DNA from: Ypsolopha sequella
Taxonomy: Eukaryota; Arthropoda; Insecta; Lepidoptera; Ypsolophidae
Reading direction: 5' to 3'
Length of the DNA stretch: 64,000 bases
Assembly: GCA_934047225.1 (NCBI GenBank)
Contig: CAKOHE010000086.1
Coordinates: forward strand, 186,001-250,000
Below the pieces are notes generated by a model. It ran no database searches. It had not been told where the DNA came from and saw only the letters and a list, made by a program, of their open reading frames with translations. Shown piece by piece: positions 24,133 to 64,000 of this stretch (position 1 is its first letter; every line of letters starts with the position of its first letter). The position numbers were made by a program, and so were the translations under genes.

Positions 24133-24196
24133 CTGAAAATATAATAATGTACCTGTGTAATGTATGTATTTATGCATCTTCAATAAATCATTGTTA

Positions 24197-29679: not shown

Positions 29680-29963
29680 TAATCAGCACCCTAATTCAAA
29701 CTGATTGCCGTAATCTCAAGTTGCCGTGCTGTCACCCGTTGAGGAGTTCTATGGTAATGAGGCCAAGATCAAAGTTCAGGTGGAGAAATTACAATTTACA
29801 AGTAGTACTCGGCAATCACTATCCTAATACAAAGCGATTGCCTTAATGTTGAGTGGTATGCTATCGTCCGTTAAGGAGTTCTATGGTGGTGAAGCCAGGA
29901 TGGAAGGTCAGGTGGGTATTCTGATAATTTCCAAGAAATGCCCGACAATCAGCACCTTACCAA
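29680..29963 (+). repeat. Tandem ~130-bp units, left part (before LINE insertion)
   Basis: Units with 'gttgaggagttctatggta' at 29738 and 'gttaaggagttctatggtgg' at 29870, interrupted at 29963 by a LINE. They continue at 33372. Confidence 0.8.
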
Positions 29964-29967
29964 TGCA

Positions 29968-35091: not shown

Positions 35092-35422
35092 CTTATTACA
35101 TTATTGTACCTTATGTTTATAAACTCACAATTGAACTGTACTAGCCTGTTACTAAAGTCGATTGTTTTGATTCTTTTACAATTTTTTATTAATATGTTAA
35201 ACTCAACTCAATTTATATCACACACACACAAACAAACTTACACACACAATACCGTACAAAATCTACCTACACTTATACAAAATCACACTTGTCCACTTTT
35301 GCATAACTTAAAACCTAAGAATAAAACCATATGCATAGGCTCAACTCAAACGAAATTCTATGTTAAACATAAAACAAACCCAAACGATAATAACGACCGC
35401 AGTTCTTTTTTCTATTTTAATA

Positions 35423-40382: not shown

Positions 40383-40629
40383 CGCAGCCTGTTGTGTCAC
40401 TAGATTTTATGTCCGTCTGGCATTTAATATTGTACTTCAGAAAAAGATTCCTGAAGCACTTCAGTAAGTGAGGTGAGTCAAACATTGACACCACCTCATG
40501 ACCTGCATGTACAAAACTTGGATGTTCCACTGACGAGCCAAGTATGTTTAATGCCCTTTTATTTACTCCATCCATATCGCATACAGTAGCGGACACGTTT
40601 ATTCCAGCTTTAAAACAACTATCCAGAAC
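40383..40629 (-). CDS. P-element/THAP9-like transposase exon with catalytic-core region
   Basis: 247 bp, acceptor 'gattttcag' before GTTCTGG and donor TGCG|GTGAGT. Phase 0 at the start (matching the exon upstream) and phase 1 at the end. Encodes VLDSCFKAGINVSATVCDMD, where the aspartate after VC is in the position of a P-transposase catalytic residue, then MFDSPHLLKCFRNLFLKY, the conserved FD-PHLxK-RN block. No lesion within the exon. Confidence 0.87.
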
Positions 40630-40700
40630 CTGAAAATCAAATACAAAATGAGAATATAAATACTACTACAGCTAATACAAATTGGGCTAGAGTTCTACTA

Positions 40701-41258: not shown

Positions 41259-41363
41259 TAGGTTTGGGTCAAGTTCTGTGTTTTTAATGTAATTTTTTTT
41301 TGCTTATTTATGGTTTATTTTTATTATTTTATTGTCGTATATACAAATCATGGCTGACTTTAC

Positions 41364-42069
41364 CTCTTTAATCAGCACGGCTAGTCTGTCTGCAGTTACA
41401 GATTCACCAGAAAAATAGTAAGCAACTGGTTGTTTCATCTTTTTGCGAATTCCGCAGATCATGAACACCAGTGCATGTGATGCAATTTCCGGGGTTCTAC
41501 CCTGTGTTCCATGATCTTGGTAACCTTCAATTGCATCAGTTTTTGGATTGTACCATAAATGTTTTCTAATGGACATTTCATCATACATTAAAATGTACTC
41601 ATTTTCTTCTGGCTCGTTTTTCTCAGATATTTGTTTTAATACATTAAACATTTGATCATTGATGCCAACATCCAAGGGTAAATTTGCCAATAATGTTTTT
41701 AATGTTGATTGGGTAGGAAGGCACCATAATCTTCTTAATAATCTATAGCAAGCTGGTGGTCTTTTATACATTCTCAGAGCTATGATTTTTTTCTGGTCTG
41801 GTCCACCTTCTTCCTTGAGCCTTAGATTTGCAGTTTCTTAGCTGAGCTTGCAGAAGAACTGCAAAGGTACTCGTCATTTTATTGTTGATTAAATCATTGA
41901 TACCTTTATTTTGGATCAAAACATTCATGAAAGATTAATTTTTTAATTGTTTAACTTTTTTCTTGAGACGGCACAACTCTTTCATACTTTTCCTACATTT
42001 TCTGTACAACTGTTTTTCCCTTGGTGTTACATTTTGGAGTTTATGTTTTGCAGTCTTTGGAATTGACTT
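41364..42069 (-). pseudogene. P-element/THAP9-like transposase exon: coiled coil and first catalytic region
   Basis: The acceptor 'atatttcag' before AAGTCAATTCC and donor AAAGAG|GTAAAGT bound 706 bp. Coiled-coil segment KSMKELCRLKKKVKQLK, then LLQAQLRNCKSKAQGRRW, YKRPPACYRLLRRLWCLP, YILMYDEMSIRKHLWYN (catalytic Asp) and VAYYFSGESVTADRL. A TAA follows KQLKN (41935-41937). A seven-A run (41791-41797) shifts the frame by one; removing one base gives 705 bp, exactly 235 codons and phase 0-0, which supports the exon model and shows the insertion is secondary. Confidence 0.85.
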
Positions 42070-42636
42070 CTGAAATATTAAATTTAAAATTGTTATAAAT
42101 TTATATTTATGTACATACCATAAAATTGTGAAATTGTTATGTACATACCATAACAATCAAAGAACATAAACCAATTATAAGCTTAAATATCTTATAAATA
42201 GTTTCATTGTTCATTCGGTCTTGTATCATCCCTGTCGTTTTCGGCTTCTGGAATAAAATAGAAAAATATATTAAAACTAAAAAAAAACGCATCATTACTC
42301 TTGTCCAGGTTATTATAACTTTTGTTTGAAATAGCTAGAATATTATTTACCAGCGAGATTATGTTTGCGTGCGAACTTATACCTGACCTGGGTTAGAAGA
42401 CGAGATGTAGACGGCTGGCGCATCTCGGTCGGGTAACACGATGAGATCAAAATTTTTGGTGTCATGACCGCGATCGGTGTTCAATATTGATTTGCTTTGA
42501 AAGAATTATTTTAAATTGGGTTAATTCTTGTGTACTAATTACAATCTGTACAATTCTTGTGTACCACGTATCGCGTTTTCCTGTGAGTGTTTTGTGTGGT
42601 TTTAGCTGTTCCGGTGTCGGAAGAACGGCTACGAAC

Positions 42637-43223
42637 AGTGTGCGCCAATCTTTTAGTCGCCTCTGAAGATAGCCGCACGAGGCGACCCAATAGCCGTTTT
42701 ACGGTGTCAGGGGGACGTTACAGGAGCGAGAGCGCGGAGCACACCCGCCTGCATGCCGCACCACACCCCCCGCTTGCCATTTAGCAGGTGTCAACACTAT
42801 GCGTTAGTGTTAGTGCTACGTCCGTACACTACACATGCGCGCGTTGCATGAAAAGTACATTCGAGGAAAAAATTCCATGATTCGTTAAGTTTATCGTTGA
42901 ATCTGTTTGTTATTGTTTTTGTTGTCTTTATTTGTTGTTTTAGTTTGTTAAAGTTTATAGTTGTTGTTATGCCTCGCGGACGTTATAGCGTTTTAAGGCG
43001 ACAATGTAAGAAAATGGTGTTTATATTAATGCTTTTTATTAATATAGTTAAGATGACACTAAAATAATAAATAAATAATGAAATAGGTAGGTACAACAAG
43101 GTACACCTTCCCACTTATAGTAAACATTTAAATCAACCGTTGATATTATTGTTTCCTTGACTGTACCTGCGCACGCTTGCACTCGTAACTCAATCAGAGG
43201 CGACTAAAAGATTGGCGCGCACT
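42637..43223. mobile_element. P-type TIR element, internally deleted copy (587 bp)
   Basis: TIR 'gcgccaatcttttagtcgcc' (42641) and its complement at the right end. Subterminal sequence on each side matches the two ends of the element at 45216-47434, in inverted orientation. It lies in the intron between the coiled-coil exon and the first linker exon. No clear target duplication. Confidence 0.78.
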
Positions 43224-43404
43224 ATACCTATTTATATTTGACTTTGTGGCCGGCCATATTAAACGGAAAATGGAGGTGTCGCTCGGACGGGACCATTCGT
43301 TTGGGGAGCACACGGGGAAGAGAGTTGAATACCTACTCATTGGGAGCCGTACATATATAATTTATTTTAGTTTATGTATTTTTATTATCCGTAAACAAAT
43401 TTAG

Positions 43405-45014: not shown

Positions 45015-45143
45015 TTTTGGAGCTGATGGTCTGAAATCATCTAAGGCTCTTGATGGAACCGAAGTAGGGTCCATACTTGGTGAAGGATAATTTGGTTCAT
45101 GTGGTCTTTTCACTGCCGCTGCACTCTCCTTGCTTGGAAAGCC
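45015..45143 (-). CDS. Linker exon L1 of the P-like gene (diverged, 129 bp)
   Basis: Acceptor 'ttacattcag' before GGC TTT and donor CCAAAA|GTAAGT, phase 0-0, 43 codons. It encodes GFPSKESAAAV, a 12-residue extra piece, then MDPTSVPSRALDDFRPSAPK. The core is clearly homologous to the tandem exons upstream. It is the last linker exon before the coiled-coil exon and joins it in frame. Confidence 0.75.
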
Positions 45144-45215
45144 CTGAATGTAAGGGGAGTTATCAAAACATCTTCTCTTTATAATATTAGTTATAACATT
45201 AGTGTAGATACGTAT

Positions 45216-47434
45216 AGTGCGCGCCAATCTTTTGGTCGCCTCTGAGTGAGTTACGAGTGCAAGCTTGCGCAGGTACAGTCAAGGAAACAATAATATGAAC
45301 GGTTGACTATTAAATGTTTACTATAAGTGGGAAGGTGTACTTGTTGTACTCCTACCTATTTAATATATATTAGTATTTTAGTGCAATCTTAACTGTTTAA
45401 ATAAAACAAATTAATATAAACACCATTTTCCTACATTGTCGCCTTAAAACGCTATAACGACCGCGAGGCATAACAACAACAATAAACTTTAACAAACTTA
45501 ATCAACAAAACAATAAATAAAGGCAACACAAACAGATTCAACGATTAACTTAACGAATCATAGAATTTTTTCCACGATAGTACCATAGTAAAACCAGAAC
45601 AGTAGATTAACTCACGCCCCGTACGAGACTTCAATACCTACTGTGTCAGGGTTGTTCCTTCTTTTATTTTCGTACCTAGCTAATACAAATCAATATTTAA
45701 ATACATATATTATACATACATATACTACGTAGGTATGTATTATGTTTGTAAATATTAAATTCATTTACATTGGGCCTTCAACTCGATGGCAGCAGCAGCG
45801 ACAGCCGGTACGAATACCGATACGTTAAATGCACGTGTTACCAACTTATCTGTTGTAAACTAAAATGACTTCTATATTCATTAGTAAAAGTCTTCGTTGC
45901 CGCGAGTCGCCGAAATAGATAAGTTTGTGGTGCTGAACTTTTGATCTACAAAGACGCCGCCGCGCCGCTGCGCCGCGCCGTAGAGACCCGAATTGACCTT
46001 TATGTAGACCGGGAGCTCAGTACAGTATTTTAACCTTATATGAGGTAGATATTAATAAAAAGCACATTTATTTAAATAAGACTTCTTTAATTTAAAATGC
46101 TTATAATTTATAATATGAAGCACGATATTTTGAAACATTATCTGTCAAATCCTCACGTGATATTAATTGTAGCCATTGTAAGCGCCTGAAAACAACAAAA
46201 TAAAAATTATGACAAATCAACTGACATTTTGAAGCCGATTATGACAAATGAGCTATCAATCGACGACGTAGTGCAACATTCAAACATACATACATTCATA
46301 TCATACATAATAAACGTATAGACCTTATAACTCATAAAGAAATCTTACTTGCTTATATTAAATAAAGTAAGAAAACTTGAAAATAATCAATTATAAAATT
46401 AAAGATAAGCTCCTGAATTTACCTTAAAAACATGGGCATCGTCAAAAGGGGGAAGGGGGCAGCTGTCCCCCCCTAGAGATTTGAAAAACTTTGAGATTTT
46501 TATAATAAAGTAACCGAAAAATTTGCGAGAAACCCAAGAACAATTGTAATGTAATGAACAATTAAAAACTTTACATTTGTTTATTTTACCTACAATTCAT
46601 GTCATCTTGCCCCCCTGGCAACGCTTTTGCTTAAAAATCTTTGTGATTGTTGACTAAATTAATCAGTTCAATTCATTTAAGTACATAATAAAATTTAAGT
46701 ACCTAATCGAACATTGGCTCCTAGTCTATAATTAAAAAATCTTTGCGATTTCAACCATATCAGCTTTACATTTAAAAACACTTTGAATAATTAACAATCA
46801 TAGCACAGTTATGATCATAGGTACCTATGTTAAATGTGAACAAAGAAAGTACGGTTTACATCTCTCATTATTATTTATATGTACCATAAATTGTGTACTC
46901 ACCTTTCTTGTTGAGTTGGTATTGAGAAGAAACGATAATTCTGGATTTGAGGAATTATTATTGAGGCATCCGAAGACAGAACAATATGTACGACAGCGTG
47001 CTGTCGACATATTTGAAGTGATCGGTGCCGCGCTTGTTCGAAAGACTTGACTGAGCGCGACCGCGGCGTGACCCCGACTAGCACCGGCCTTGCATACCGA
47101 GATATTGCTGTTGTGTGCGTACTGTAGTTCGTGCGTACTAGCACGCACACATATTAGCCGCGCGATGTACCTTTGGTTGAAGATAAACTACTTTTCTGGT
47201 TTTACTATGATAGTACTTTTCATGCAACGCGCGCATGTGTAGTGTACGGACGTAGCACTAACACTAACGCATAGTGTTGACACCTGCCGAACGGCGAGCG
47301 GGGGGTGTGGTGCGGCATGCAGGCGGGTGTGCTCCGCGCCCTCGCTCCTGTAACGTCCCCCTGACACCGTAAAACGGCTAATGCGTCGATTGTTGGGGCT
47401 AGCTTCAGAGGCGACTAAAAGATTGGCGCGCACT
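45216..47434 (-). mobile_element. P-type TIR element with a THAP-like exon (2.2 kb)
   Basis: TIRs 'agtgcgcgccaatctttt...tcgcctctga' (45216-45245) and its complement (47405-47434). Both subterminal regions match the deleted copy at 42637. It contains one recognisable exon (46903-47010) resembling the N-terminal half of a THAP zinc finger, but no transposase. TIR length and the THAP exon point to the P superfamily. The high end lies four bases inside the intron after linker exon L2. Confidence 0.7.
46903..47010 (-). pseudogene. THAP-domain first exon (partial, one frameshift)
   Basis: From ATG at 47010: MSTARCRTYCSVFGCLNNNS, fitting the C-x(2-4)-C..N start of a THAP C2CH zinc finger, then ELSF. 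The expected continuation FSIPTQQER is in another frame, so one base has been lost or gained. It ends at a good donor AAAG|GTGAGT. Upstream sequence to 47434 is GC-rich and could be its promoter. The second half of the THAP domain was not found. Confidence 0.6.
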
Positions 47435-47438
47435 GTAC

Positions 47439-47531
47439 CTTTTGAGCTTTTAGTCTGAAAACATCCAAAGATCTTGATGGTACAGGGGTGGGGTCCACTG
47501 CTACCTCTGCACTGTTCTCACTTGGAAAGAC
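47439..47531 (-). CDS. Linker exon L2 (diverged, 93 bp)
   Basis: Acceptor 'ctcccctttcag', 31 codons, phase 0-0: VFPSENSAEVAVDPTPVPSR then SLDVFRLKAQK. The donor reads GTAC from the original intron plus AG contributed by the inserted TIR element, so splicing may be weakened. Confidence 0.7.
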
Positions 47532-47856
47532 CTGAAAGGGGAGATATTTTCCTTTAAAAAATATCCTATTACATAATATAATGTAAGCAGTGCCGGATTA
47601 AGCCAGCGCGGGGCCTGTAGCAAATTCTAAAAATATATACTGAATACTTGAAAAAATCGGTTGCACCGCTATATTATGTAAGAAAATAATACTCAACACA
47701 ATTACGAAACGGTCAAACAATTACGGTCGCTTTGGATGAATTATATCATGATTCAGTTCTAATGCCGTCTCTTTTGCACGCGTGAAAAAACTCTGACTCT
47801 ATCCTACTTTCAAATCATTTTATGATTCACCCAAGTCGGCCTTTTTAGATCCCCTG

Positions 47857-48210
47857 CTCAGAAAATGAAACCACATGTAGGGAATACCTCTACAAAGCCA
47901 TAAAAAAAACAATTTCGAGAAAATATTTCTGTTTACAGAAATTTGTTTTCTCGAACAAAATAAATCGTGTTCCAAGTGTGCACCTTCCCTTCCAGTATTA
48001 CTACATGTCAGTAACCTGCACGAAGCGGCAACATCGCATTTTCAAGCCTGTTAAAAAAACGTGGTTAGTACGTTACACTTGTGAGCGAAACTAAATTAAT
48101 TATTAATTTGTAGATGTATTAATAGGAATGTCGAAATGAAATTTAGTACAAAGAACCCTCATATCATCCCCTATACGTGGTTTCATTTTCTGAGCAGGTC
48201 ATCATTACAT
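47857..48210. mobile_element. ~365-bp MITE of the array (representative, truncated left end)
   Basis: TIR 'tgatgacctgctcagaaaat' ... and the inverse 'attttctgagcaggtcatca', about 35 bp long. Complete copies start near 48803, 51330, 53213, 57740, 58699, 62580 and 63543; those at 54172, 55365 and 56557 contain a nested MITE. Its position in every unit shows it was present before the array expanded. Confidence 0.8.
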
Positions 48211-48232
48211 GGTGTATATAATAGGTACATAC

Positions 48233-48325
48233 CTTTGGCGCTGTTTGTTTGACATCATCCAAAGCTCTTGATGGTACAGGGGTGGGGTCCATTGCTACCA
48301 CTGCACTGATCTCACTTTGAAAGAC
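48233..48325 (-). CDS. Linker exon L3 (tandem type)
   Basis: 93 bp, phase 0-0, acceptor 'cccctttcag', donor CCAAAG|GTATGT. Core AMDPTPVPSRALDDVKQTAP, preceded by VFQSEISAVV. Ala variant at codon 11. Confidence 0.72.
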
Positions 48326-49170
48326 CTGAAAGGGGAGATATTTTTCTTTAAAAAATGTCCTATTACATAATATAATGTAAGCAGTGCCGGATTAAGCCAG
48401 CGCGGGGCCTGTAGCAAATTCTAAAAATATATACTGAATACATAAAAAAATCGGTTGCACCGCTATATTATGTAAGAAAATAATACTCAACACAATTACG
48501 AAACCACTTTTCTCAAGAATGGTTCATATCGAAAGTACTATTATTATCATCCAAACGTAAATATCGATCATTCCTTATAGATTGGTAGTCAATATAACCC
48601 TTTTCAAATCGGTCGGGTTATTACGACTAGCACGGAGAAAATATTAGGGAATTCCCTGTTTTGTTTAGCAGTATTGCCAACTTGCGTGTAGTGCGGTGCG
48701 AAACATGAATTTTTGGTATGACCAGCAGATAGAAAAATAAAATTATAGTTGATCATTTTGATGCAAATATTTTCTTCTTAGTAATTTTGACATACAGGGT
48801 GTAATGATGACCTGCTCAGAAAATGAAACCTCATGTAGGGAATACCTCTACAAAGCCATAAAAAAAATCAATTTCGAGAAAATATTTCTGTTTACAGAAA
48901 TTTGTTTTCTCGAACAAAATAAATCGTGTTCCAAGTGTGCACCTTCCCTTCCAGTATTACTACATGTCAGTAACCTGCACGAAGCGGCAACATCGCATTT
49001 TCAAGCCTGTTAAAAAAACGTGGTTAGTACGTTACACTTGTGAGCGAAACTAAATTAATTATTAATTTGTAGATGTATTAATAGGAATGTCGAAATGAAA
49101 TTTAGTACAAAGAACCCTCATATCATCCCCTATACGTGGTTTCATTTTCTGAGCAGGTCATCATTACATG

Positions 49171-49173
49171 GTG

Positions 49174-49205
<32 letters not shown>

Positions 49206-50748
49206 CTTTATTTCAAACCATTGGTCCATATTTTAAATTACAAGATAAGATTTTAAAAACTAAAACTAATTATACATTTTCTTCCAACAAATCGTAACAC
49301 AACTTAATATTAAGGTATGTGCGCCATAGGTTTTAATAAATTTGTCCAGAAAGTCGCAATTGAACGGCTGTAGTCATGAACAGTCCTTACTAAGCCATTG
49401 CTAGTGGTAGAAAGAGCCAACCTAAAACTCGCCACCCGCTGCCTGATAACTGCCTCAGCACACGGCAGGCGCGCCTCAGCAAACATCGTGGACGCACTGC
49501 ACCATCGTGGCAGACGGAAGAGAATGCGGAAAGCATCATTGTATTGTACTTTAAATCTTCGGAAGTTTTCCTTTAAATACTTCGTCCATAAATGCGGCGT
49601 GTACATAGTTTGACAGTATGTTTTAAAAAGGAGCAACTTCGAGTCACGAGATCCCTTGCAGAACTTACGACCTATCATATTGGCACGGACCGCTAATGAA
49701 CGTCTCTCTCTATCCAAATCAGCATCATCATGAAGATCACATGTAACCCAGTGTCCAAGGTATTTAAAACTTTTAACGAACGAAATACTATCCCCGTTCA
49801 GGTAAACCGGAAAAGGACAAACAGCCTTACTGTTCTCGGAAAACACCATACCCACAGACTTAGCGGTATTGTAGACCAACTTGTGTTCAAACGCATACTT
49901 TTCGCAGATAACCAAGAGACGCCTCAGAGCTGCGGCTGATGGGCTCAGGAGGACCATGTCATCGGCGTAGCTAAGATTGTTCACACACTCACCGCCAATA
50001 TGACATCCGACACGCATCTCCCTGAGCTCACCAATCAAAGCATCAACGTACAGGTTAAAGAGCAAGGGGGAGGTAAGTCCCCCCTGCCTCACCCCGCACG
50101 GCAACACAAATTGCTCTGACAGCGCCCCGCACCACCTAACCATGTTCCTCTGATCTGCGTACCAGCTGGCAAGGATGTTGATCATGTCTGGAGGCACACC
50201 TCTTTCACGCAGTTTATTCCAAAGAATTCTGTAGTCCACTCTATCGAACGCGCGGCTCAAATCGAGAAAACATGCAAACACCGGAGTTTTTCTCTCAATA
50301 TAGTATTTGATGGTCTGTTTTAGAGAGAAAATTGCGAAATCAGTAGAACTATCTCTCTTAAATCCAAATTGAGCATCGTTAATGCTAATAAATTTTGACA
50401 AAATATCTAAAATAATGGAATCAAATAATTTTGCACATGTTGTAGCTAGAGATATCGGGCGATAATTTTTACTATCAGATGCTAACACTGTCTTACTTTT
50501 AATAATAGGCGAGACTACGGTTTCAAGTAGATCCGATGGTAAGTGAGCGTGCCTCAGACACGCATTAAAGAACACAGAGAGGAACACCACCACCCACGGG
50601 CCCCCGAAACGCAGATGCTCAACGCCAATGCTGTCGTGACCAGCAGACTTACCTAGCTTCATTGCTCTCAGCGTATTAAAAACCTTACTCTCTGAGATAT
50701 GCGAATAAGCAGCTACATGGTCAGGACTAAATTTGGATTGGTCGTCGG
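49171..50748 (-). mobile_element. 5'-truncated LINE (family R), copy 1
   Basis: The (TTA)n tail is at 49171-49203; the 5' boundary at about 50748 lies 13-14 bases downstream of linker exon L4's donor. It was inserted in array intron sequence between 'gtatgtacctatt' and 'atatacaccatg'. Confidence 0.82.
49310..50748 (-). CDS. LINE reverse transcriptase, truncated ORF2, copy 1
   Basis: About 480 LINE-derived codons. RT motifs: NYRPISLATTCAKLFDSIIL, CFLDLSRAFDRVDY, CGVRQGGLTSPLLFNLYVDA and NLSYADDMVLLS (about residue 288 counting from the GTG at 50830). The endonuclease domain is missing. The frame extends upstream through the donor-defective exon L4, giving a readthrough of MDPTPVPSRALDD... into RT. 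The clade is uncertain. Identical in protein sequence to copy 2. Confidence 0.85.
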
Positions 50749-50762
50749 AAATAGGTACATAC

Positions 50763-50853
50763 TTTGGCGCTGTTTGTTTGACATCATCCAAAGCTCTTGA
50801 TGGTACAGGGGTGGGGTCCATTGCTACCACTGCACTGATCCACTTTGAAAGAC
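50763..50853 (-). pseudogene. Linker exon L4 (two 1-bp deletions, fused to RT frame)
   Basis: Lacks one T in 'gatctcac' and one G at the exon/donor border, so it is 91 bp and no longer symmetric. The donor becomes CCAAA|GTATGT, or is read through into the LINE. The same two deletions occur in L11. Confidence 0.75.
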
Positions 50854-51717
50854 CTGAAAGGGGAGATATTTTCCTTTAAAAAATGTCCTATTACATAATA
50901 TAATGTAAGCAGTGCCGGATTAAGCCAGCGCGGGGCCTGTAGCAAATTCTAAAAATATATACTGAATACTTAAAAAAAATCGGTTGCACCGCTATATTAT
51001 GTAAGAAAATAATACTCAACACAATTACGAAACCACTTTTCTCAAGAATGGTTCATATCGAAAGTACTATTATTATCATCCAAACGTAAATATCGATCAT
51101 TCCTTATAGATTGGTAGTCAATATAACCCTTTTCAAATCGGTCGGGTTATTACGACTAGCACGGAGAAAATATTAGGGAGTTCCCTGTTTTGTTTAGCAG
51201 TATTGCCAACTTGCGTGTAGTGCGGTGCGAAACATGATTTTTGGTATGACCAGCAGATAGAAAAATAAAATTATAGTTGATCATTTTGATGCAAATATTT
51301 TCTTCTTAGTAATTTTGACATACAGGTGTAATGATGACCTGCTCAGAAAATGAAACCACATGTAGGGAATACCTCTACAAAGCCATAAAAAAAACAATTT
51401 CGAGAAAATATTTCTGTTTACAGAAATTTGTTTTCTCGAACAAAATAAATCGTGTTCCAAGTGTGCACCTTCCCTTCCAGTATTACTACATGTCAGTAAC
51501 CTGCACGAAGCGGCAACATCGCATTTTCAAGCCTGTTAAAAAAACGTGGTTAGTACGTTACACTTGTGAGCGAAACTAAATTAATTATTAATTTGTAGAT
51601 GTATTAATAGGAATGTCGAAATGAAATTTAGTACAAAGAACCCTCATATCATCCCCTATACGTGGTTTCATTTTCTGAGCAGGTCATCATTACATGGTGT
51701 ATATAATAGGTACATAC

Positions 51718-51810
51718 CTTTGGCGCTGTTTGTTTGACATCATCCAAAGCTCTTGATGGTACAGGGGTGGGGTCCATTGCTACCACTGCACTGATCTCAC
51801 TTTGAAAGAC
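51718..51810 (-). CDS. Linker exon L5 (tandem type)
   Basis: 93 bp, phase 0-0, intact sites; Ala variant at codon 11. The intron on its upstream side carries a LINE family T fragment. Confidence 0.72.
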
Positions 51811-51914
51811 CTGAAAGGGGAGATATTTTCCTTTAAAAAATGTCCTATTACATAATATAATGTAAGCAGTGCCGGATTAAGCCAGCGCGGGGCCTGTAGC
51901 AAATTCTAAAAATA

Positions 51915-52828
51915 TTCAAATTCAATTCAAATTCAAATAGTTTATTTTGCAAAGCAGGTATAGATATATACACTTTTTACACGTCAAATTTAATCTAATA
52001 AAGAAAATATATGTAATAGAATAATAAATGTACATGAACTAAATTAAAGGTTTATTTAATTTATGTAGCAATATATTTACGATTAAAATGATAGGTAAAA
52101 TATATATTATACAAGGTAAAATCCAATCAGCCGCCCGAACCCATACCGGAGACCCGGCCAGGGACCAGGAACAAGGTTCAATGATCACCAACTAAGCCCC
52201 CAGCACGAATCCAGGCGGCCGACCAAATCCCATCCTATATACTACAAACTAATAGGTTACATATATAAATACATGCCTACCTCCGCCCATTCGATTAGTC
52301 TTGCTAAGAAGAAGGGCAAGAAACTTAGCAAGATCATGTCTTTTTTTCAACATAAAACTTATACTATACAATATATGACTTATATCTACTTTAACCAAGG
52401 GATAAGAAAATACAAGACAGTAGGAATTCAGGTTAATGAAAAAAAGAAAAACATATATATCTTTGTCTACCTGTCTCATATAGTCCTTTTCCTTTTACAG
52501 TCTGTAATCAATTAATGTTTACACCTTAGAGGAATCATAAGTTAAGAAATTATACTATTTAATTAAATTATAACTTACTACGAGTATCATTATCACTGTA
52601 ACACCATGCTTCACCATCATCCAAATATTCATTTATTTTATAATATGCCTTTTTCAATAGGCCCTGCTTAATATACAGTTTAAACTTATTCTCTGACAAA
52701 GTAAGGACCTCCTTTGGAAGTTTATTGTAAAATCTTATACCATGTCCTACAAAAGAGGTACTCACCTTAGCGAGTCTGATTTTTGGAAAAGCCAGTTTAT
52801 GCTTATTTCTGGTCTCCTTACAATGTTA
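51915..52828 (-). mobile_element. 5'-truncated LINE fragment (family T) in the array
   Basis: The tail 'aattcaaattcaaatagttt' is at the low end; C-terminal coding sequence at 52765-52568. Virtually identical to 59180-60089. Inserted in 'ctaaaaatatatactgaata' of the array intron. Confidence 0.82.
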
Positions 52829-53598
52829 TAATGTATATATATACTGAATACTTGAAAAAATCGGTTGCACCGCTATATTATGTAAGAAAATAATACTCAA
52901 CACAATTACGAAACCACTTTTCTCAAGAATGGTTCATATCGAAAGTACTATTATTATCATCCAAACGTAAATATCGATCATTCCTTATAGATTGGTAGTC
53001 AATATAACCCTTTTCAAATCGGTCGGGTTATTACGACTAGCACGGAGAAAATATAAGGGAATTCCCTGCTTTGTTTAGCAGTATTGCCAACTTGCGTGTA
53101 GTGCGGTGCGAAACATGATTTTTGGTATGACCAGCAGATAGAAAAATAAAATTATAGTTGATCATTTTGATGCAAATATTTTCTTCTTAGTAATTTTGAC
53201 ATACAGGGTGTAATGATGACCTGCTCAGAAAATGAAACCACATGTAGGGAATACCTCTACAAAGCCATAAAAAAACAATTTCGAGAAAATATTTCTGTTT
53301 ACAGAAATTTGTTTTCTCGAACAAAATAAATCGTGTTCCAAGTGTGCACCTTCCCTTCCAGTATTACTACATGTCAGTAACCTGCACGAAGCGGCAACAT
53401 CGCATTTTTAAGCCTGTTAAAAAAACGTGGTTAGTACGTTACACTTGTGAGCGAAACTAAATTAATTATTAATTTGTAGATGTATTAATAGGAATGTCGA
53501 AATGAAATTTAGTACAAAGAACCCTCATATCATCCCCTATACGTGGTTTCATTTTCTGAGCAGGTCATCATTACATGGTGTATATAATAGGTACATAC

Positions 53599-53691
53599 CT
53601 TTGGCGCTGTTTGTTTGACATCATCCAAAGCTCTTGATGGTACAGGGGTGGGGTCCATTGTTACCACTGCACTGATCTCACTTTGAAAGAC
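53599..53691 (-). CDS. Linker exon L6 (tandem type, Thr variant)
   Basis: 93 bp, phase 0-0, intact sites. Codon 11 reads Thr (VVTMDPTPVPSR). Confidence 0.72.
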
Positions 53692-54180
53692 CTGAAAGGG
53701 GAGATATTTTCCTTTAAAAAATGTCCTATTACATAATATAATGTAAGCAGTGCCGGATTAAGCCAGCGCGGGGCCTGTAGCAAATTCTAAAAATATATAC
53801 TGAATACTTAAAAAAATCGGTTGCACCGCTATATTATGTAAGAAAATAATACTCAACACAATTACGAAACCACTTTTCTCAAGAATGGTTCATATCAAAA
53901 GTACTATTATTATCATCCAAACGTAAATATCGATCATTCCTTATAGATTGGTAGTCAATATAACCCTTTTCAAATCGGTCGGGTTATTACGACTAGCACG
54001 GAGAAAATATTAGGGAATTCCCTGTTTTGTTTAGCAGTATTGCCAACTTGCGTGTAGTGCGGTGCGAAACATGATTTTTGGTATGACCAGCAGATAGAAA
54101 AATAAAATTATAGTTGATCATTTTGATGCAAATATTTTCTTCTTAGTAATTTTGACATACAGGGTGTAATGATGACCTGC

Positions 54181-54410
54181 CCCCCTATTCTGTATCTTTA
54201 GTTGCCAACTGAACGAGGTGCCTATCATCAAAAACATAGATAAAAACTGAAATTACAAAATTGCCTTTAGTGGGTATTGAACTATTAACAATCTGTGTCG
54301 TCACTTCAAGTGCGAACATATCCTTAGGACATCGGAATTCGATAGTATATCTATGTTTTTGATGATAGACACCCAGTCCAGAAGGCAACTAGAGATACAT
54401 AATAGGCCCG
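54181..54410. mobile_element. 230-bp MITE nested in the array MITE, copy 1
   Basis: TIRs 'cctattctgtatctttagtt' and the inverse of 'actagagatacataatagg', flanked by ctgc. Sits inside the TIR of the array MITE. Small open frames here have no gene-like features. Confidence 0.78.
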
Positions 54411-54790
54411 CTGCTCAGAAAATGAAACCACATGTAGGGAATACCTCTACAAAGCCATAAAAAAAAACAATTTCGAGAAAATATTTCTGTTTACAGAAAT
54501 TTGTTTTCTCGAACAAAATAAATCGTGTTCTAAGTGTGCACCTTCCCTTCCAGTATTACTACATGTCAGTAACCTGCACGAAGCGGCAACATCGCATTTT
54601 TAAGCCTGTTAAAAAAACGTGGTTAGTACGTTACACTTGTGAGCGAAACTAAATTAATAATTAATTTTTAGATGTATTAATAGGAATGTCGAAATGAAAT
54701 TTAGTACAAAGAACCCTCATATCATCCCCTATACGTGGTTTCATTTTCTGAGCAGGTCATCATTACATGGTGTATATAATAGGTACATAC

Positions 54791-54883
54791 CTTTGGCGCT
54801 GTTTGTTTGACATCATCCAAAGCTCTTGATGGTACAGGGGTGGGGTCCATTGTTACCACTGCACTGATCTCACTTTGAAAGAC
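54791..54883 (-). CDS. Linker exon L7 (tandem type, Thr variant)
   Basis: 93 bp, phase 0-0, intact sites; unit length 1,190 bp because of the nested MITE. Confidence 0.72.
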
Positions 54884-55372
54884 CTGAAAGGGGAGATATT
54901 TTCCTTTAAAAAATGTCCTATTACATAATATAATGTAAGCAGTGCCGGATTAAGCCAGCGCGGGGCCTGTAGCAAATTCTAAAAATATATACTGAATACT
55001 TAAAAAAATCGGTTGCACCGCTATATTATGTAAGAAAATAATACTCAACACAATTACGAAACCACTTTTCTCAAGAATGGTTCATATCGAAAGTACTATT
55101 ATTATCATCCAAACGTAAATATCGATCATTCCTTATAGATTGGTAGTCAATATAACCCTTTTCAAATCGGTCGGGTTATTACGACTAGCACGGAGAAAAT
55201 ATTAGGGAATTCCCTGTTTTGTTTAGCAGTATTGCCAACTTGCGTGTAGTGCGGTGCGAAACATGATTTTTGGTATGACCAGCAGATAGAAAAATAAAAT
55301 TATAGTTGATCATTTTGATGCAAATATTTTCTTCTTAGTAATTTTGACATACAGGGTGTAATGATGACCTGC

Positions 55373-55601
55373 CCCCCTATTCTGTATCTTTAGTTGCCAA
55401 CTGAACGAGGTGCCTATCATCAAAAACATAGATAAAACTGAAATTACAAAATTGCCTTTAGTGGGTATTGAACTATTAACAATCTGTGTCGTCACTTCAA
55501 GTGCGAACATATCCTTAGGACATCGGAATTCGATAGTATATCTATGTTTTTGATGATAGACACCCAGTCCAGAAGGCAACTAGAGATACATAATAGGCTC
55601 G
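55373..55601. mobile_element. 230-bp nested MITE, copy 2
   Basis: Same position and boundaries as at 54181, one base shorter (gataaaactg versus gataaaaactg). Confidence 0.78.
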
Positions 55602-55980
55602 CTGCTCAGAAAATGAAACCACATGTAGGGAATACCTCTACACAGCCATAAAAAAAACAATTTCGAGAAAATATTTCTGTTTACAGAAATTTGTTTTCTC
55701 GAACAAAATAAATCGTGTTCCAAGTGTGCACCTTCCCTTCCAGTATTACTACATGTCAGTAACCTGCACGAAGCGGCAACATCGCATTTTTAAGCCTGTT
55801 AAAAAAACGTGGTTAGTACGTTACACTTGTGAGCGAAACTAAATTAATTATTAATTTTTAGATGTATTAATAGGAATGTCGAAATGAAATTTAGTACAAA
55901 GAACCCTCATATCATCCCCTATACGTGGTTTCATTTTCTGAGCAGGTCATCATTACATGGTGTATATAATAGGTACATAC

Positions 55981-56073
55981 CTTTGGCGCTGTTTGTTTGA
56001 CATCATCCAAAGCTCTTGATGGTACAGGGGTGGGGTCCATTGTTACCACTGCACTGATCTCACTTTGAAAGAC
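55981..56073 (-). CDS. Linker exon L8 (tandem type, Thr variant)
   Basis: 93 bp, phase 0-0, intact acceptor and GTATGT donor. Confidence 0.72.
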
Positions 56074-56562
56074 CTGAAAGGGGAGATATTTTCCTTTAAA
56101 AAATGTCCTATTACATAATATAATGTAAGCAGTGCCGGATTAAGCCAGCGCGGGGCCTGTAGCAAATTCTAAAAATATATACTGAATACTTAAAAAAATC
56201 GGTTGCACCGCTATATTATGTAAGAAAATAATACTCAACACAATTACGAAACCACTTTTCTCAAGAATGGTTCATATCGAAAGTACTATTATTATCATCC
56301 AAACGTAAATATCGATCATTCCTTATAGATTGGTAGTCAATATAACCCTTTTCAAATCGGTCGGGTTATTACGACTAGCACGGAGAAAATATTAGGGAGT
56401 TCCCTGTTTTGTTTAGCAGTATTGCCAACTTGCGTGTAGTGCGGTGCGAAACATGATTTTTGGTATGACCAGCAGATAGAAAAATAAAATTATAGTTGAT
56501 CATTTTGATGCAAATATTTTCTTCTTAGTAATTTTGACATACAGGGTGTAATGATGACCTGC

Positions 56563-56792
56563 CCCCCTATTCTGTATCTTTAGTTGCCAACTGAACGAGG
56601 TGCCTATCATCAAAAACATAGATAAAAACTGAAATTACAAAATTGCCTTTAGTGGGTATTGAACTATTAACAATCTGTGTCGTCACTTCAAGTGCGAACA
56701 TATCCTTAGGACATCGGAATTCGATAGTATATCTATGTTTTTGATGATAGACACCCAGTCCAGAAGGCAACTAGAGATACATAATAGGCCCG
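56563..56792. mobile_element. 230-bp nested MITE, copy 3
   Basis: Same insertion point as in the two preceding units, so copied by unit duplication. Confidence 0.78.
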
Positions 56793-57170
56793 CTGCTCAG
56801 AAAATGAAACCACATGTAGGGAATACCTCTACAAAGCCATAAAAAAAACAATTTCGAGAAAATATTTCTGTTTACAGAAATTTGTTTTCTCGAACAAAAT
56901 AAATCGTGTTCCAAGTGTGCACCTCCCCTTCCAGTATTTCTACATGTCAGTAACCTGCACGAAGCGGCAACATCGCATTTTTAAGCCTGTTAAAAAACGT
57001 GGTTAGTACGTTACACTTGTGAGCGAAACTAAATTAATAATTAATTTTTAGATGTATTAATAGGAATGTCGAAATGAAATTTAGTACAAAGAACCCTCAT
57101 ATCATCCCCTATACGTGGTTTCATTTTCTGAGCAGGTCATCATTACATGGTGTATATAATAGGTACATAC

Positions 57171-57263
57171 CTTTGGCGCTGTTTGTTTGACATCATCCAA
57201 AGCTCTTGATGGTACAGGGGTGGGGTCCATTGTTACCACTGCACTGATCTCACTTTGAAAGAC
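57171..57263 (-). CDS. Linker exon L9 (tandem type, Thr variant)
   Basis: 93 bp, phase 0-0, intact sites. Confidence 0.72.
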
Positions 57264-58128
57264 CTGAAAGGGGAGATATTTTCCTTTAAAAAATGTCCTA
57301 TTACATAATATAATGTAAGCAGTGCCGGATTAAGCCAGCGCGGGGCCTGTAGCAAATTCTAAAAATATATACTGAATACTTAAAAAAATCGGTTGCACCG
57401 CTATATTATGTAAGAAAATAATACTCAACACAATTACGAAACCACTTTTCTCAAGAATGGTTCATATCGAAAGTACTATTATTATCATCCAAACGTAAAT
57501 ATCGATCATTCCTTATAGATTGGTAGTCAATATAACCCTTTTCAAATCGGTCGGGTTATTACGACTAGCACGGAGAAAATATTAGGGAGTTCCCTGTTTT
57601 GTTTAGCAGTATTGCCAACTTGCGTGTAGTGCGGTGCGAAACATGATTTTTGGTATGACCAGCAGATAGAAAAATAAAATTATAGTTGATCATTTTGATG
57701 CAAATATTTTCTTCTTAGTAATTTTGACATACAGGGTGTAATGATGACCTGCTCAGAAAATGAAACCACATGTAGGGAATACCTCTACAAAGCCATAAAA
57801 AAAAACAATTTCGAGAAAATATTTCTGTTTACAGAAATTTGTTTTCTCGAACAAAATAAATCGTGTTCCAAGTGTGCACCTTCCCTTCCAGTATTACTAC
57901 ATGTCAGTAACCTGCACGAAGCGGCAACATCGCATTTTCAAGCCTGTTAAAAAAACGTGGTTAGTACGTTACACTTGTGAGCGAAACTAAATTAATTATT
58001 AATTTGTAGATGTATTAATAGGAATGTCGAAATGAAATTTAGTACAAAGAACCCTCATATCATCCCCTATACGTGGTTTCATTTTCTGAGCAGGTCATCA
58101 TTACATGGTGTATATAATAGGTACATAC

Positions 58129-58221
58129 CTTTGGCGCTGTTTGTTTGACATCATCTAAAGCTCTTGATGGTACAGGGGTGGGGTCCATTGCTACCACTGC
58201 ACTGATCTCACTTTGAAAGAC
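58129..58221 (-). CDS. Linker exon L10 (tandem type)
   Basis: 93 bp, phase 0-0, Ala variant, one silent change (TTG to TTA in ALDD). Its unit shares private variants with that of L3. Confidence 0.72.
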
Positions 58222-59061
58222 CTGAAAGGGGAGATATTTTTCTTTAAAAAATGTCCTATTACATAATATAATGTAAGCAGTGCCGGATTAAGCCAGCGCG
58301 GGGCCTGTAGCAAATTCTAAAAATATATACTGAATACTTAAAAAAATCGGTTGCACCGCTATATTATGTAAGAAAATAATACTCAACACAATTACGAAAC
58401 CACTTTTCTCAAGAATGGTTCATATCGAAAGTACTATTATTATCATCCAAACGTAAATATCGATCATTCCTTATAGATTGGTAGTCAATATAACCCTTTT
58501 CAAATCGGTCGGGTTATTACGACTAGCACGGAGAAAATATTAGGGAATTCCCTGTTTTGTTTAGCAGTATTGCCAACTTGCGTGTAGTGCGGTGCGAAAC
58601 ATGAATTTTTGGTATGACCAGCAGATAGAAAAATAAAATTATAGTTGATCATTTTGATGCAAATATTTTCTTCTTAGTAATTTTGACATACAGGGTGTAA
58701 TGATGACCTGCTCAGAAAATGAAACCTCATGTAGGGAATACCTCTACAAAGCCATAAAAAAAATCAATTTCGAGAAAATATTTCTGTTTACAGAAATTTG
58801 TTTTCTCGAACAAAATAAATCGTGTTCCAAGTGTGCACCTTCCCTTCCAGTATTACTACATGTCAGTAACCTGCACGAAGCGGCAACATCGCATTTTCAA
58901 GCCTGTTAAAAAAACGTGGTTACACTTGTGAGCGAAACTAAATTAATTATTAATTTGTAGATGTATTAATAGGAATGTCGAAATGAAATTTAATACAAAG
59001 AACCCTCATATCATCCCCTATACGTGGTTTCATTTTCTGAGCAGGTCATCATTACATGGTG

Positions 59062-59105
<44 letters not shown>

Positions 59106-59173
59106 CTTTATTTCAAACCATTGGTCTATATTTTAAATTACAAGATAAGATTTTAAAAACTAAAACTAATTAA

Positions 59174-60523
59174 ATTCAAATTCAAATTCAAATTCAAATA
59201 GTTTATTTTGCAAAGCAGGTATAGATATATACACTTTTTACACGTCAAATTTAATCTAATAAAGAAAATATATGTAATAGAATAATAAATGTACATGAAC
59301 TAAATTAAAGGTTTATTTAATTTATGTAGCAATATATTTACGATTAAAATGATAGGTAAAATATATATTATACAAGGTAAAATCCAATCAGCCGCCCGAA
59401 CCCATACCGGAGACCCGGCCAGGGACCAGGAACAAGGTTCAATGATCACCAACCAAGCCCCCAGCACGAATCCAGGCGGCCGACCAAATCCCATCCTATA
59501 TACTACAAACTAATAGGTTACATATATAAATACATGCCTACCTCCGCCCATTCGATTAGTCTTGCTAAGAAGAAGGGCAAGAAACTTAGCAAGATCATGT
59601 CTTTTTTTCAACATAAAACTTATACTATACAATATATGACTTATATCTACTTTAACCAAGGGATAAGAAAATACAAGACAGTAGGAATTCAGGTTAATGA
59701 AAAAAAGAAAAACATATATATCTTTGTCTACCTGTCTCATATAGTCCTTTTCCTTTTACAGTCTGTAATCAATTAATGTTTACACCTTAGAGGAATCATA
59801 AGTTAAGAAATTATACTATTTAATTAAATTATAACTTACTACGAGTATCATTATCACTGTAACACCATGCTTCACCATCATCCAAATATTCATTTATTTT
59901 ATAATATGCCTTTTTCAATAGGCCCTGCTTAATATACAGTTTAAACTTATTCTCTGACAAAGTAAGGACCTCCTTTGGAAGTTTATTGTAAAATCTTATA
60001 CCATGTCCTACAAAAGAGGTACTCACCTTAGCGAGTCTGATTTTTGGAAAAGCCAGTTTATGCTTATTTCTGGTCTCCTTACAATGTTGCTTACCAAGCC
60101 TTGGGAAAGACTCAACATTTTTTCTGACATATCTAAGGACTTGGTAAATATATTCACAAGGAACCGTTAATATATTAATTTCTTTGAACTTTTGTCTTAA
60201 TGAATCCCGGTGCTTCATATTATAAATAGCCCGAATTGCTCTCTTCTGCAAAACAAAGACTGCGTCTGTATCCGCGGCTCTACCCCATAACAGCATGCCG
60301 TATGACATAATGCTGTGAAAGTAACTAAAATAGACTAGTCTAGCAGTATCTACATCAGTAATTTGTCTTATGCGTCTAACAGCGTATGCGGCCGAACTAA
60401 GTCTACCACATAGGGCTTCTATGTGGGGACCCCACTGAAGACGAGAGTCTACCGTAATGCCTAAAAACTTTGTTTCGTTAACTAACTCCAGCTTGGACCC
60501 CTGCAAAAGCAAATTACAATTAT
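59174..60523 (-). mobile_element. 5'-truncated LINE (family T) nested in family R copy 2
   Basis: Tail 'aaattcaaattcaaattcaa' at the low end, AATTA on both sides. The empty site is in copy 1 at about 49267-49272 ('actaattatacattttc'). Confidence 0.85.
59829..60520 (-). CDS. LINE ORF2 C-terminal region (family T)
   Basis: About 230 codons of post-RT sequence: KFLGITVDSRLQWGPHIEAL, YGMLLWGRAADTDAVFVLQK, FVGHGIRFYNKLPKEVL, ending DNDTRSKL. The catalytic RT region is missing through 5' truncation. Similar to Jockey/CR1-group C-termini. The ATG at 60527 belongs to the host LINE, not to this one. Confidence 0.8.
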
Positions 60524-60559
60524 ACATTTTCTTCCAACAAATCGTAACACAACTTAATA

Positions 60560-61998
60560 TTAAGGTATGTGCGCCATAGGTTTTAATAAATTTGTCCAGA
60601 AAGTCGCAATTGAACGGCTGTAGTCATGAACAGTCCTTACTAAGCCATTGCTAGTGGTAGAAAGAGCCAACCTAAAACTCGCCACCCGCTGCCTGATAAC
60701 TGCCTCAGCACACGGCAGGCGCGCCTCAGCAAACATCGTGGACGCACTGCACCATCGTGGCAGACGGAAGAGAATGCGGAAAGCATCATTGTATTGTACT
60801 TTAAATCTTCGGAAGTTTTCCTTTAAATACTTCGTCCATAAATGCGGCGTGTACATAGTTTGACAGTATGTTTTAAAAAGGAGCAACTTCGAGTCACGAG
60901 ATCCCTTGCAGAACTTACGACCTATCATATTGGCACGGACCGCTAATGAACGTCTCTCTCTATCCAAATCAGCATCATCATGAAGATCACATGTAACCCA
61001 GTGTCCAAGGTATTTAAAACTTTTAACGAACGAAATACTATCCCCGTTCAGGTAAACCGGAAAAGGACAAACAGCCTTACTGTTCTCGGAAAACACCATA
61101 CCCACAGACTTAGCGGTATTGTAGACCAACTTGTGTTCAAACGCATACTTTTCGCAGATAACCAAGAGACGCCTCAGAGCTGCGGCTGATGGGCTCAGGA
61201 GGACCATGTCATCGGCGTAGCTAAGATTGTTCACACACTCACCGCCAATATGACATCCGACACGCATCTCCCTGAGCTCACCAATCAAAGCATCAACGTA
61301 CAGGTTAAAGAGCAAGGGGGAGGTAAGTCCCCCCTGCCTCACCCCGCACGGCAACACAAATTGCTCTGACAGCGCCCCGCACCACCTAACCATGTTCCTC
61401 TGATCTGCGTACCAGCTGGCAAGGATGTTGATCATGTCTGGAGGCACACCTCTTTCACGCAGTTTATTCCAAAGAATTCTGTAGTCCACTCTATCGAACG
61501 CGCGGCTCAAATCGAGAAAACATGCAAACACCGGAGTTTTTCTCTCAATATAGTATTTGATGGTCTGTTTTAGAGAGAAAATTGCGAAATCAGTAGAACT
61601 ATCTCTCTTAAATCCAAATTGAGCATCGTTAATGCTAATAAATTTTGACAAAATATCTAAAATAATGGAATCAAATAATTTTGCACATGTTGTAGCTAGA
61701 GATATCGGGCGATAATTTTTACTATCAGATGCTAACACTGTCTTACTTTTAATAATAGGCGAGACTACGGTTTCAAGTAGATCCGATGGTAAGTGAGCGT
61801 GCCTCAGACACGCATTAAAGAACACAGAGAGGAACACCACCACCCACGGGCCCCCGAAACGCAGATGCTCAACGCCAATGCTGTCGTGACCAGCAGACTT
61901 ACCTAGCTTCATTGCTCTCAGCGTATTAAAAACCTTACTCTCTGAGATATGCGAATAAGCAGCTACATGGTCAGGACTAAATTTGGATTGGTCGTCGG
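60560..61998 (-). CDS. LINE reverse transcriptase, truncated ORF2, copy 2
   Basis: The same protein as at 49310-50748, residue for residue as far as I can compare, including YADDMVLLS, with the same readthrough from the damaged linker exon. Identity shows that this copy arose by recent duplication of the unit, not by an independent insertion. Confidence 0.85.
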
Positions 61999-62012
61999 AA
62001 ATAGGTACATAC

Positions 62013-62103
62013 TTTGGCGCTGTTTGTTTGACATCATCCAAAGCTCTTGATGGTACAGGGGTGGGGTCCATTGCTACCACTGCACTGATCCACTTTGAAA
62101 GAC
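62013..62103 (-). pseudogene. Linker exon L11 (two 1-bp deletions, fused to RT frame)
   Basis: Carries the same two single-base deletions as L4. Confidence 0.75.
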
Positions 62104-62967
62104 CTGAAAGGGGAGATATTTTCCTTTAAAAAATGTCCTATTACATAATATAATGTAAGCAGTGCCGGATTAAGCCAGCGCGGGGCCTGTAGCAAATTCT
62201 AAAAATATATACTGAATACTTAAAAAAATCGGTTGCACCGCTATATTATGTAAGAAAATAATACTCAACACAATTACGAAACCACTTTTCTCAAGAATGG
62301 TTCATATCGAAAGTACTATTATTATCATCCAAACGTAAATATCGATCATTCCTTATAGATTGGTAGTCAATATAACCCTTTTCAAATCGGTCGGGTTATT
62401 ACGACTAGCACGGAGAAAATATAAGGGAATTCCCTGCTTTGTTTAGCAGTATTGCCAACTTGCGTGTAGTGCGGTGCGAAACATGATTTTTGGTATGACC
62501 AGCAGATAGAAAAATAAAATTATAGTTGATCATTTTGATGCAAATATTTTCTTCTTAGTAATTTTGACATACAGGGTGTAATGATGACCTGCTCAGAAAA
62601 TGAAACCACATGTAGGGAATACCTCTACAAAGCCATAAAAAAAACAATTTCGAGAAAATATTTCTGTTTGCAGAAATTTGTTTTCTCGAACAAAATAAAT
62701 CGTGTTCCAAGTGTGCACCTTCCCTTCCAGTATTACTACATGTCAGTAACCTGCACGAAGCGGCAACATCGCATTTTCAAGCCTGTTAAAAAAACGTGGT
62801 TAGTACGTTACACTTGTGATCGAAACTAAATTAATTATTAATTTGTAGATGTATTAATAGGAATGTCGAAATGAAATTTAGTACAAAGAACCCTCATATC
62901 ATCCCCTATACGTGGTTTCATTTTCTGAGCAGGTCATCATTACATGGTGTATATAATAGGTACATAC

Positions 62968-63060
62968 CTTTGGCGCTGTTTGTTTGACATCATCCAAAGC
63001 TCTTGATGGTACAGGGGTGGGGTCCATTGCTACCACTGCACTGATCTCACTTTGAAAGAC
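62968..63060 (-). CDS. Linker exon L12 (tandem type)
   Basis: 93 bp, phase 0-0, Ala variant, intact sites. Confidence 0.72.
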
Positions 63061-63929
63061 CTGAAAGGGGAGATATTTTCCTTTAAAAAATGTCCTACTC
63101 CTATTACATAATATAATGTAAGCAGTGCCGGATTAAGCCAGCGCGGGGCCTGTAGCAAATTCTAAAAACATATACTGAATACTTAAAAAGATCGGTTGCA
63201 CCGCTATATTATGTAAGAAAATAATACTCAACACAATTACGAAACTACTTTTCTCAAGAATAGTTCATATCGAAAGTACTATTATTATCATCCAAACGTA
63301 AATATCGATCATTCCTTATAGATTGGTAGTCAATATAACCCTTTTCAAATCGGTCGGGTTATTACGACTAGCACGGAGAAAATATTAGGGAATTCCCTGT
63401 TTTGTTTAGCAGTATTGCCAACTTGCGTGTAGTGCGGTGCGAAACATGATTTTTGGTATGACCAGCAGATAGAAAAATAAAATTATAGTTGATCATTTTG
63501 ATGCAAATATTTTCTTCTTAGTAATTTTGACATACAGGGTGTAATGATGACCTGCTCAGAAAATGAAACCACATGTAGGGAATACCTCTACAAAGCCATA
63601 AAAAAACAATTTCGAGAAAATATTTCTGTTTACAGAAATTTGTTTTCTCGAACAAAATAAATCGTGTTCCAAGTGTGCACCTTCCCTTCCAGTATTACTA
63701 CATGTCAGTAACCTGCACGAAGCGGCAACATCGCATTTTTAAGCCTGTTAAAAAAACGTGGTTAGTACGTTACACTTGTGAGCGAAACTAAATTAATTAT
63801 TAATTTGTAGATGTATTAATAGGAATGTCGAAATGAAATTTAGTACAAAGAACCCTCATATCATCCCCTATACGTGGTTTCATTTTCTGAGCAGGTCATC
63901 ATTACATGGTGTATATAATAGGTACATAC

Positions 63930-64000
63930 CTTTGGCGCTGTTTGTTTGACATCATCCAAAGCTCTTGATGGTACAGGGGTGGGGTCCATTGTTACCACTG
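63930..64000 (-). CDS. Linker exon L13 (tandem type, cut by window end)
   Basis: The first 71 bp counted from the donor side are present; Thr variant. Array and gene continue upstream beyond 64000, where a THAP exon and promoter would be expected. Confidence 0.7.

Follow-up and report, generated by a model that had tools for sequence, protein, structure and literature searches.

The transposase of the Drosophila P element is described as a THAP domain followed by dimerization, RNase H with a GTP-binding insertion and C-terminal parts (PMC7776569), and within the portion of that paper covered here neither homologous linker exons nor an array of them is mentioned. The equally partial portions of other sources name central parts of DNA transposons as a source of satellites and unequal crossing-over as a route to them (PMC12628747; PMC6947457), and describe LPA KIV-2 as a translated, exon-bearing variable number tandem repeat (PMC11462820) and the Dscam type of gene as having tandemly arrayed homologous exons (PMC1397879). 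The stretch of Ypsolopha sequella DNA analyzed here, hereafter the window, comprises 64,000 nucleotides (C116:186001-250000) of an 866.8-Mb, 151-contig assembly. In it, a gene for a P/THAP9-like transposase carries a linker exon, symmetric and in phase 0 at both ends, that has undergone tandem amplification, as the original prediction had claimed, and the 19-copy array of this locus is probably a satellite-like array grown from the linker exon of a lepidopteran gene of that family.

Like the Drosophila P transposase and THAP9, the present gene has an RNase H core similar to PDB 6p5a and, as far as the portion of PMC7776569 covered here describes it, what is probably the same domain order; unlike them, it carries several phase-0 linker exons between its THAP and coil exons, one of which occurs in an array of 19 to 40 copies. 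As in transposon-derived satellites, a fragment of a transposable element (TE) has been arranged in tandem, although here the monomer, still lying within the gene that gave rise to it, keeps an exon and usable splice sites, and one of the sister loci (C72) preserves a form with two copies. The KIV-2 repeats of LPA are translated in a working gene, whereas the present gene copy is broken. With arrays of the Dscam type the locus shares the tandem arrangement of homologous exons. Among the titles and abstract openings of the matches listed, a sample lying mostly outside the subscription literature, none was found to describe a P-family gene with arrayed exons or linkers.

All 13 minus-strand linker-exon copies that had been predicted in the window were found again (coordinates in window numbering), comprising 11 array copies and two diverged ones. 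The core sequence said to be common to the 13 is encoded exactly, as DPTPVPSRALDD, by the 11 array copies, and the diverged linkers depart from it: the exon closest to the coil exon (a45, 45015-45143, minus strand, phase 0), with 129 bp and 43 aa, reads DPTSVPSRALDD, and the one at the downstream edge of the array (b47, 47439-47531, minus strand) reads DPTPVPSRSLDV. Identical splice sites and phase 0 at both ends, whether still present or already lost, had been proposed for eleven copies, and nine of the array copies show them: these are open, 93 bp long and flanked by an AG acceptor and a GTATGT donor (48233-48325, 51718-51810, 53599-53691, 54791-54883, 55981-56073, 57171-57263, 58129-58221, 62968-63060 and 63930-64000, the last being cut at the window end and complete to 64022 in the adjoining stretch, L001). 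The remaining two (50762-50853 and 62012-62103) have suffered a 1-bp deletion and lost a donor base, with a long interspersed nuclear element (LINE) starting 10-13 bp downstream. When a further 60 kb of flanking DNA was added, the lower bound of 13 copies gave way to a larger locus of 24 linker exons, of which 19 are array copies (48.2-78.5 kb, ending at 78,528) and five are diverged outer linkers, two of which (47439 and 45015) flank the array on one side and three (81165, 81338 and 82380) on the other; in C116, the linker at 81165 is out of frame and that at 81338 is without a GT donor. The proposal that any number of copies could be spliced in without shifting the frame agrees with phase 0 at both exon ends but not with the three of 19 array exons that carry a frameshifting 1-bp deletion, a lesion also seen in 5/24 copies at C61 and 4/40 at C74. 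The linker nearest the coil exon (45015) does join it in frame, as anticipated, and that coil exon then runs into a stop in C116.

The repeat unit consists of the exon together with its intron rather than of the exon alone, and occurs in a short form of ~955-962 bp and a long form of ~1190 bp, unit positions 474-703 being present in the long units only. A representative long unit defined by unit mapping spans 53692-54883 on the minus strand (1192 bp, a 93-bp exon plus intron). Whole units are mostly 98-99.8% alike, which places the repeat far beyond chance. Each intron also holds an inverted repeat, with 52 of 67 positions paired, that begins just after the donor (short-unit positions ~98-160 and ~442-508); in RNA, pairing would be possible between any copies. 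Searching plasmids with one array unit gave no match, as expected of an insect repeat.

The array sits in the linker between the THAP and coil regions of one P/THAP9-like gene, that is, between its DNA-binding and catalytic parts. Its position inside a single gene follows from the THAP-type exons found at ~83 kb, before it, and from the coil, whose exon lies at 42.07 kb; all are ordered on the minus strand. THAP exon 1 (~83.28-83.18 kb, placed by relatives) lies just upstream of THAP exon 2 (82,992-82,807), which matched positions 23-84 of PF05485, half of the domain, with E=0.0016 and 19.6 bits, under the curated 23.9, and aligned to the relative P0007 with 54% identity over 63 residues. Downstream of the array, the exon at 41361-42069 (minus strand) combines the coil, so labeled by eye and by position, with an RNase H core supported by PF21787 (E=1.1e-27) and by PDB 6p5a, Transposable element P transposase (E=3.8e-06). 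The next exon (40381-40632, minus strand) had no Pfam match of the P family, yet relatives align along its full length with 53-67% identity, and PDB 6p5a also aligns to it. It is followed by an exon encoding TNP-like_GBD, the GTP-binding insertion domain (27795-27986, minus strand; PF21788, E=6.1e-09), and by the C-terminal exons (22871-24151, minus strand), in which a stop, a small deletion and a frame change were found. The closest named relatives are lepidopteran and form one protein family with the present transposase: Helicoverpa armigera P0001 (51% identity over 81% of the query), Bicyclus anynana P0005 (46% over 84%) and Parnassius mnemosyne P0031 (71% over 36%), with the first ~65 residues of the query derived from a different element. 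No convincing terminal inverted repeats were found when 2.65 kb upstream was compared with ~3.4 kb downstream in C116 and C61, the best pairing (20/23 nt, E=0.043) occurring in C116 only.

In C116 this gene lacks an intact reading frame. THAP exon 1 contains an in-frame stop and a frame change, in the coil exon KKVKQLKN is followed by an in-frame stop and KIIAL is preceded by a frame change, ahead of the RNase H part, and the C-terminal exons bear the lesions mentioned above. C116, C61 and C74 have identical THAP exon 1 stretches, lesions included, and C61 also has the coil stop and the subsequent frame change of C116; at C72, both the 177-aa RNase H frame and the C-terminal stop are those of C116. 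Downstream of the 40 array copies at C74, no transposase exon was found within 660-699 kb (39 kb), where matches to C116 are short and dispersed only; a match of C74:692742-692876 to the HARBI1-type part of P0046 was not counted as P transposase. Because the gene copy is broken and the C74 array stands without a transposase body, a satellite-like array is the simplest reading, and it has the organization of a satellite, with homogenized monomers arranged head-to-tail and in higher-order blocks. Among the three alternatives raised originally, a satellite born from a gene fragment fits the large array best. A repeated-linker protein or a cassette bank made from this array was found unsupported, given the broken gene, the 3/19 frameshifted exons and an exon that varies like its intron: pairwise diversity among the aligned window units was 0.0082 for the exon, against 0.0098 and 0.0060 for two parts of the intron, so that the comparison, which has low power, gave no sign of constraint within the array.

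Tandem exon duplication can give rise to mutually exclusive splicing through competing RNA pairings, according to the part of PMC6071210 covered here. A bank of mutually exclusive cassettes would accordingly be compatible with the homologous exons standing in tandem and with the inverted repeat that follows the donor in each unit. The 16 open array exons of C116, however, encode two peptides, one residue apart, and three peptides are encoded at C74, which has 36 open copies. The exons of Dscam are diverged alternatives, unlike the nearly identical exons of the present array, in which no such divergence was found. Since phase 0 at both ends requires no exclusion, and since the gene copy is broken, we consider a Dscam-like bank extremely improbable.

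The array exon occurs in two copies at C72, 19 at C116, 24 at C61 and 40 (plus a partial one) at C74, the C61 and C74 numbers being those obtained by alignment, for which a stricter exon pattern gave 23 and 38. Genome-wide, the 40 matches scored out of 115 candidates lay on three contigs, among the matches listed, and the C72 locus was found by another route; there, the gene is the same one, but its array-type exons number two, arr1 and arr2, at a distance of 957 bp. With the L1 linker exon as the query, at least 13 full matches and one 142-nt match were obtained, which indicates up to 14 assembled members of this type among the matches listed, haplotype copies included. The C61 and C116 loci share 99.97% identity over 56.8 kb, as would be expected of unpurged haplotypes (the match falls to ~94-99% past 39,109), and the C46 contig starts 13 bp beyond the linker closest to the coil, much as assemblies break at arrays. 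Both observations would suit an assembly artefact, in which mis-joined repeats or unpurged haplotypes inflated the copy number. Against it, the units differ from one another, as do their insertions, and the array structure of C116 and C61 is unlike that of C74, where block duplications reach 13.9 kb at 99.8% identity. On these grounds we regard an artefact as very unlikely. Upstream of the C74 array, the flank is similar to that of C116 over four blocks of 2.1-3.3 kb (98.8-99.8%), separated by stretches that do not match.

Of the up to 14 members, four besides the array loci (C16, C72, C20 and C13) were each read over the linker region, and all four were found to have two to six linkers per gene; several homologous phase-0 linkers per gene thus seem usual for the family. 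C16 has four phase-0 linkers (159, 93, 93 and 129 bp) separated by introns of 47, 74 and 72 nt, C72 has six open linkers, five of them with a GT donor, C20 has at least three, of which one shows no GT donor, and C13 has two, one of which is a fusion. The members at C16 (L034, C16:10994550-10996050) and C13 (L036, C13:18834400-18835600) pass from the linkers straight to the GTP-binding exon and, being without coil and RNase H exons, resemble internally deleted non-autonomous elements. Among the members read, most of them partially, no copy was open end to end. In comparisons of the six C72 linkers, pN/pS was below 1 in 14 of 15 pairs (uncorrected p<0.05 in 5/15), the pairs being non-independent and mixed by recombination, which suggests that the older linkers were probably translated in the past. 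An internal repeat was observed in five of 47 relatives, four of which, all predicted Parnassius apollo proteins (P0003, P0018, P0020 and P0030), share one exact 38-aa tandem repeat in the linker region, a stretch that P0014, likewise from P. apollo, has once. This two-copy repeat occupies the same region as the repeats of the array gene and differs from them in sequence. Database proteins of the eligible size (0.55-1.75x the 415-aa query) were compared with the array exon by 5-residue words, and none had three in common with it.

These family data bear on a functional accordion linker, namely a transposase or a THAP-linker repressor with many linkers, whose number would set the reach between DNA binding and dimerization. 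The phase-0 linkers, most of them open, the low pN/pS at C72 and the P. apollo repeat all agree with such a protein; the C116 gene copy, however, is broken at both ends, the three damaged array exons would be expected to shift its frame, constraint was not evident within the array, and neither a coil nor a catalytic exon was found on the downstream side of the C74 array. The P. apollo repeat, being common to four proteins, may also reflect copies of one element. For the large array we accordingly judge a functional accordion linker unlikely, whereas proteins with a modest number of linkers stay plausible. A broader proposal for the family, which we put forward tentatively and hold to be rather doubtful, is that interchangeable phase-0 linkers recombine inside the exon, so that their number varies from 2 to >40 in one genome; modest numbers would be translated in working transposases and adjust the spacing of the DNA-binding and dimerization parts, until runaway arrays kill the copy.

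As regards the origin of the satellite-like array, arr1 and arr2 of C72 differ at nine sites, and the T-type array exon, which accounts for nine of the 16 open exons in C116, shares nt 31 and 34 with arr2, whereas nt 18 and the six differing sites from 71 to 87 are those of arr1. A crossover inside the exon, between nt 34 and 71, would explain the T-type if nt 18 is private to arr2 of C72. The C13 fusion exon has L1 sequence on its 5' side and b81 sequence on its 3' side, and, judged from this arrangement, would be a contraction by the same route as the expansion of the array. The intron that lies between the linkers corresponding to arr1 and arr2 is 74 nt long in C16 but reaches 864 nt in C72. 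The b47 linker differs from the array exons at 12-13 of 93 nt, against 2 of ~178 in its acceptor-side intron (Fisher p=7.5e-5). This contrast, which might suggest that the exon is under positive selection, was read as a sign of mosaic copies instead.

Mobile elements have been inserted in and around the array. On the minus strand, an element termed LINE-A occupies 49183-50749 within a unit, with a 4-bp overlap at unit positions 103-106, and a second copy (59071-61999), co-amplified with its unit, contains a dispersed repeat B. LINE-A is found at the identical unit position in three C116 units, which implies that it was copied together with the unit. An open reading frame (ORF) with an RVT_1 match (49310-50875, E=9.3e-32) continues into the exon frame; this and the corresponding reverse transcriptase frame at 60560-62125 were rejected as exon fusions and assigned to LINE insertions whose frame was joined by coincidence. 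Dispersed repeat B, LINE-like by eye, is inserted twice within the window, once directly in a unit (51915-52837, minus strand, 4-bp overlap at unit positions 1088-1091), and the copy with the longest ORF (59829-60623) gave no Pfam match. The 230-bp segment that distinguishes the long units also lies in an intron of C46 (L032:1978-2225) at a place where C116 is without it, and is therefore probably mobile.

A further 2.2-kb element (45205-47436, minus strand), whose ends match a short 0.6-kb repeat at 42635-43246, separates the two linkers on the coil side; it is missing at C72, where the flanking linkers are 72 bp apart. It contains a frame (CSVFGC) that appears THAP-like by eye and had no Pfam THAP match even at E=10. 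A placement of the array 5' of the gene, considered on account of this frame at 47.0 kb, was ruled out, since the frame belongs to a separate insertion absent at C72 and the P-type THAP exons lie at ~83 kb. A possible THAP-like fragment at 28802-28927 (VVCSRHFKAEDF; weak match, E=0.74) lies within the long intron of this gene. Ahead of the GTP-binding exon, the intron is ~12.4 kb long in C116, against ~2.2 kb in C61, and in C116 it holds two long frames that look LINE ORF2-like (29893-32970 and 35339-38389), alike by eye, with an ORF1-like frame between them. Elsewhere in the window, an ORF at 8274-9194 carries a MULE transposase domain (PF10551, E=1.9e-07), and the ORF at L003:7421-8317 looks related to it by eye.

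Together, these features suggest the following course of events. The family gene would usually carry several homologous phase-0 linker exons, and in one lineage an inserted sequence may have lengthened the intron between arr1 and arr2, making a long unit. Unequal crossing-over between arr1 and arr2, with its breakpoint in the exon, would then have yielded the ~960-bp unit, which presumably multiplied to 19 copies at C116, 24 at C61 and 40 at C74, dragging inserted elements along, with two copies at C72. The transposase copy would have decayed and the array would now be turning over in a satellite-like manner. In this scheme, the anatomy, the copy numbers of this assembly, the chimeric exon, the lesions of the gene and the similar diversity of exon and intron are observed, whereas we infer that two copies preceded many, that unequal exchange was responsible and that the array has no function at present.

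Several observations weigh against parts of this account. The array exons are still open in 16/19 cases at C116, 19/24 at C61 and 36/40 at C74, which may reflect just youth, at ~1% divergence. The gene is less broken elsewhere: THAP exon 1 at C72 is free of the C116 lesions and the coil/RNase H exon is open in C46, so that an intact allele may exist. Alleles and paralogues are indistinguishable among these loci. The fit to one crossover is unclean, requiring as it does the private state of nt 18, and the A-type array exon (7/16 in C116) equals arr1 at nt 31 as well, and arr2 only at nt 34. The breakpoint between array and b81 is by itself not significant (6/57 vs 7/36 nt, p=0.24), and the C72 comparison carries the crossover argument. 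C72 could also be a contracted array.

Satellites born from TEs are already known, and their early stages are seldom preserved. Here, a compact form with several linkers is kept in one genome together with a form of two copies, arrays of 19, 24 and 40, and a contracted fusion exon. The recombination points are visible in the exon, so that a real exon can be seen becoming a satellite-like repeat. Since a two-copy linker repeat of different sequence is present in predicted P. apollo proteins, the locus also raises the testable question of whether the stretch between THAP and dimerization regions of P transposases tolerates, or uses, repeated exon cassettes.

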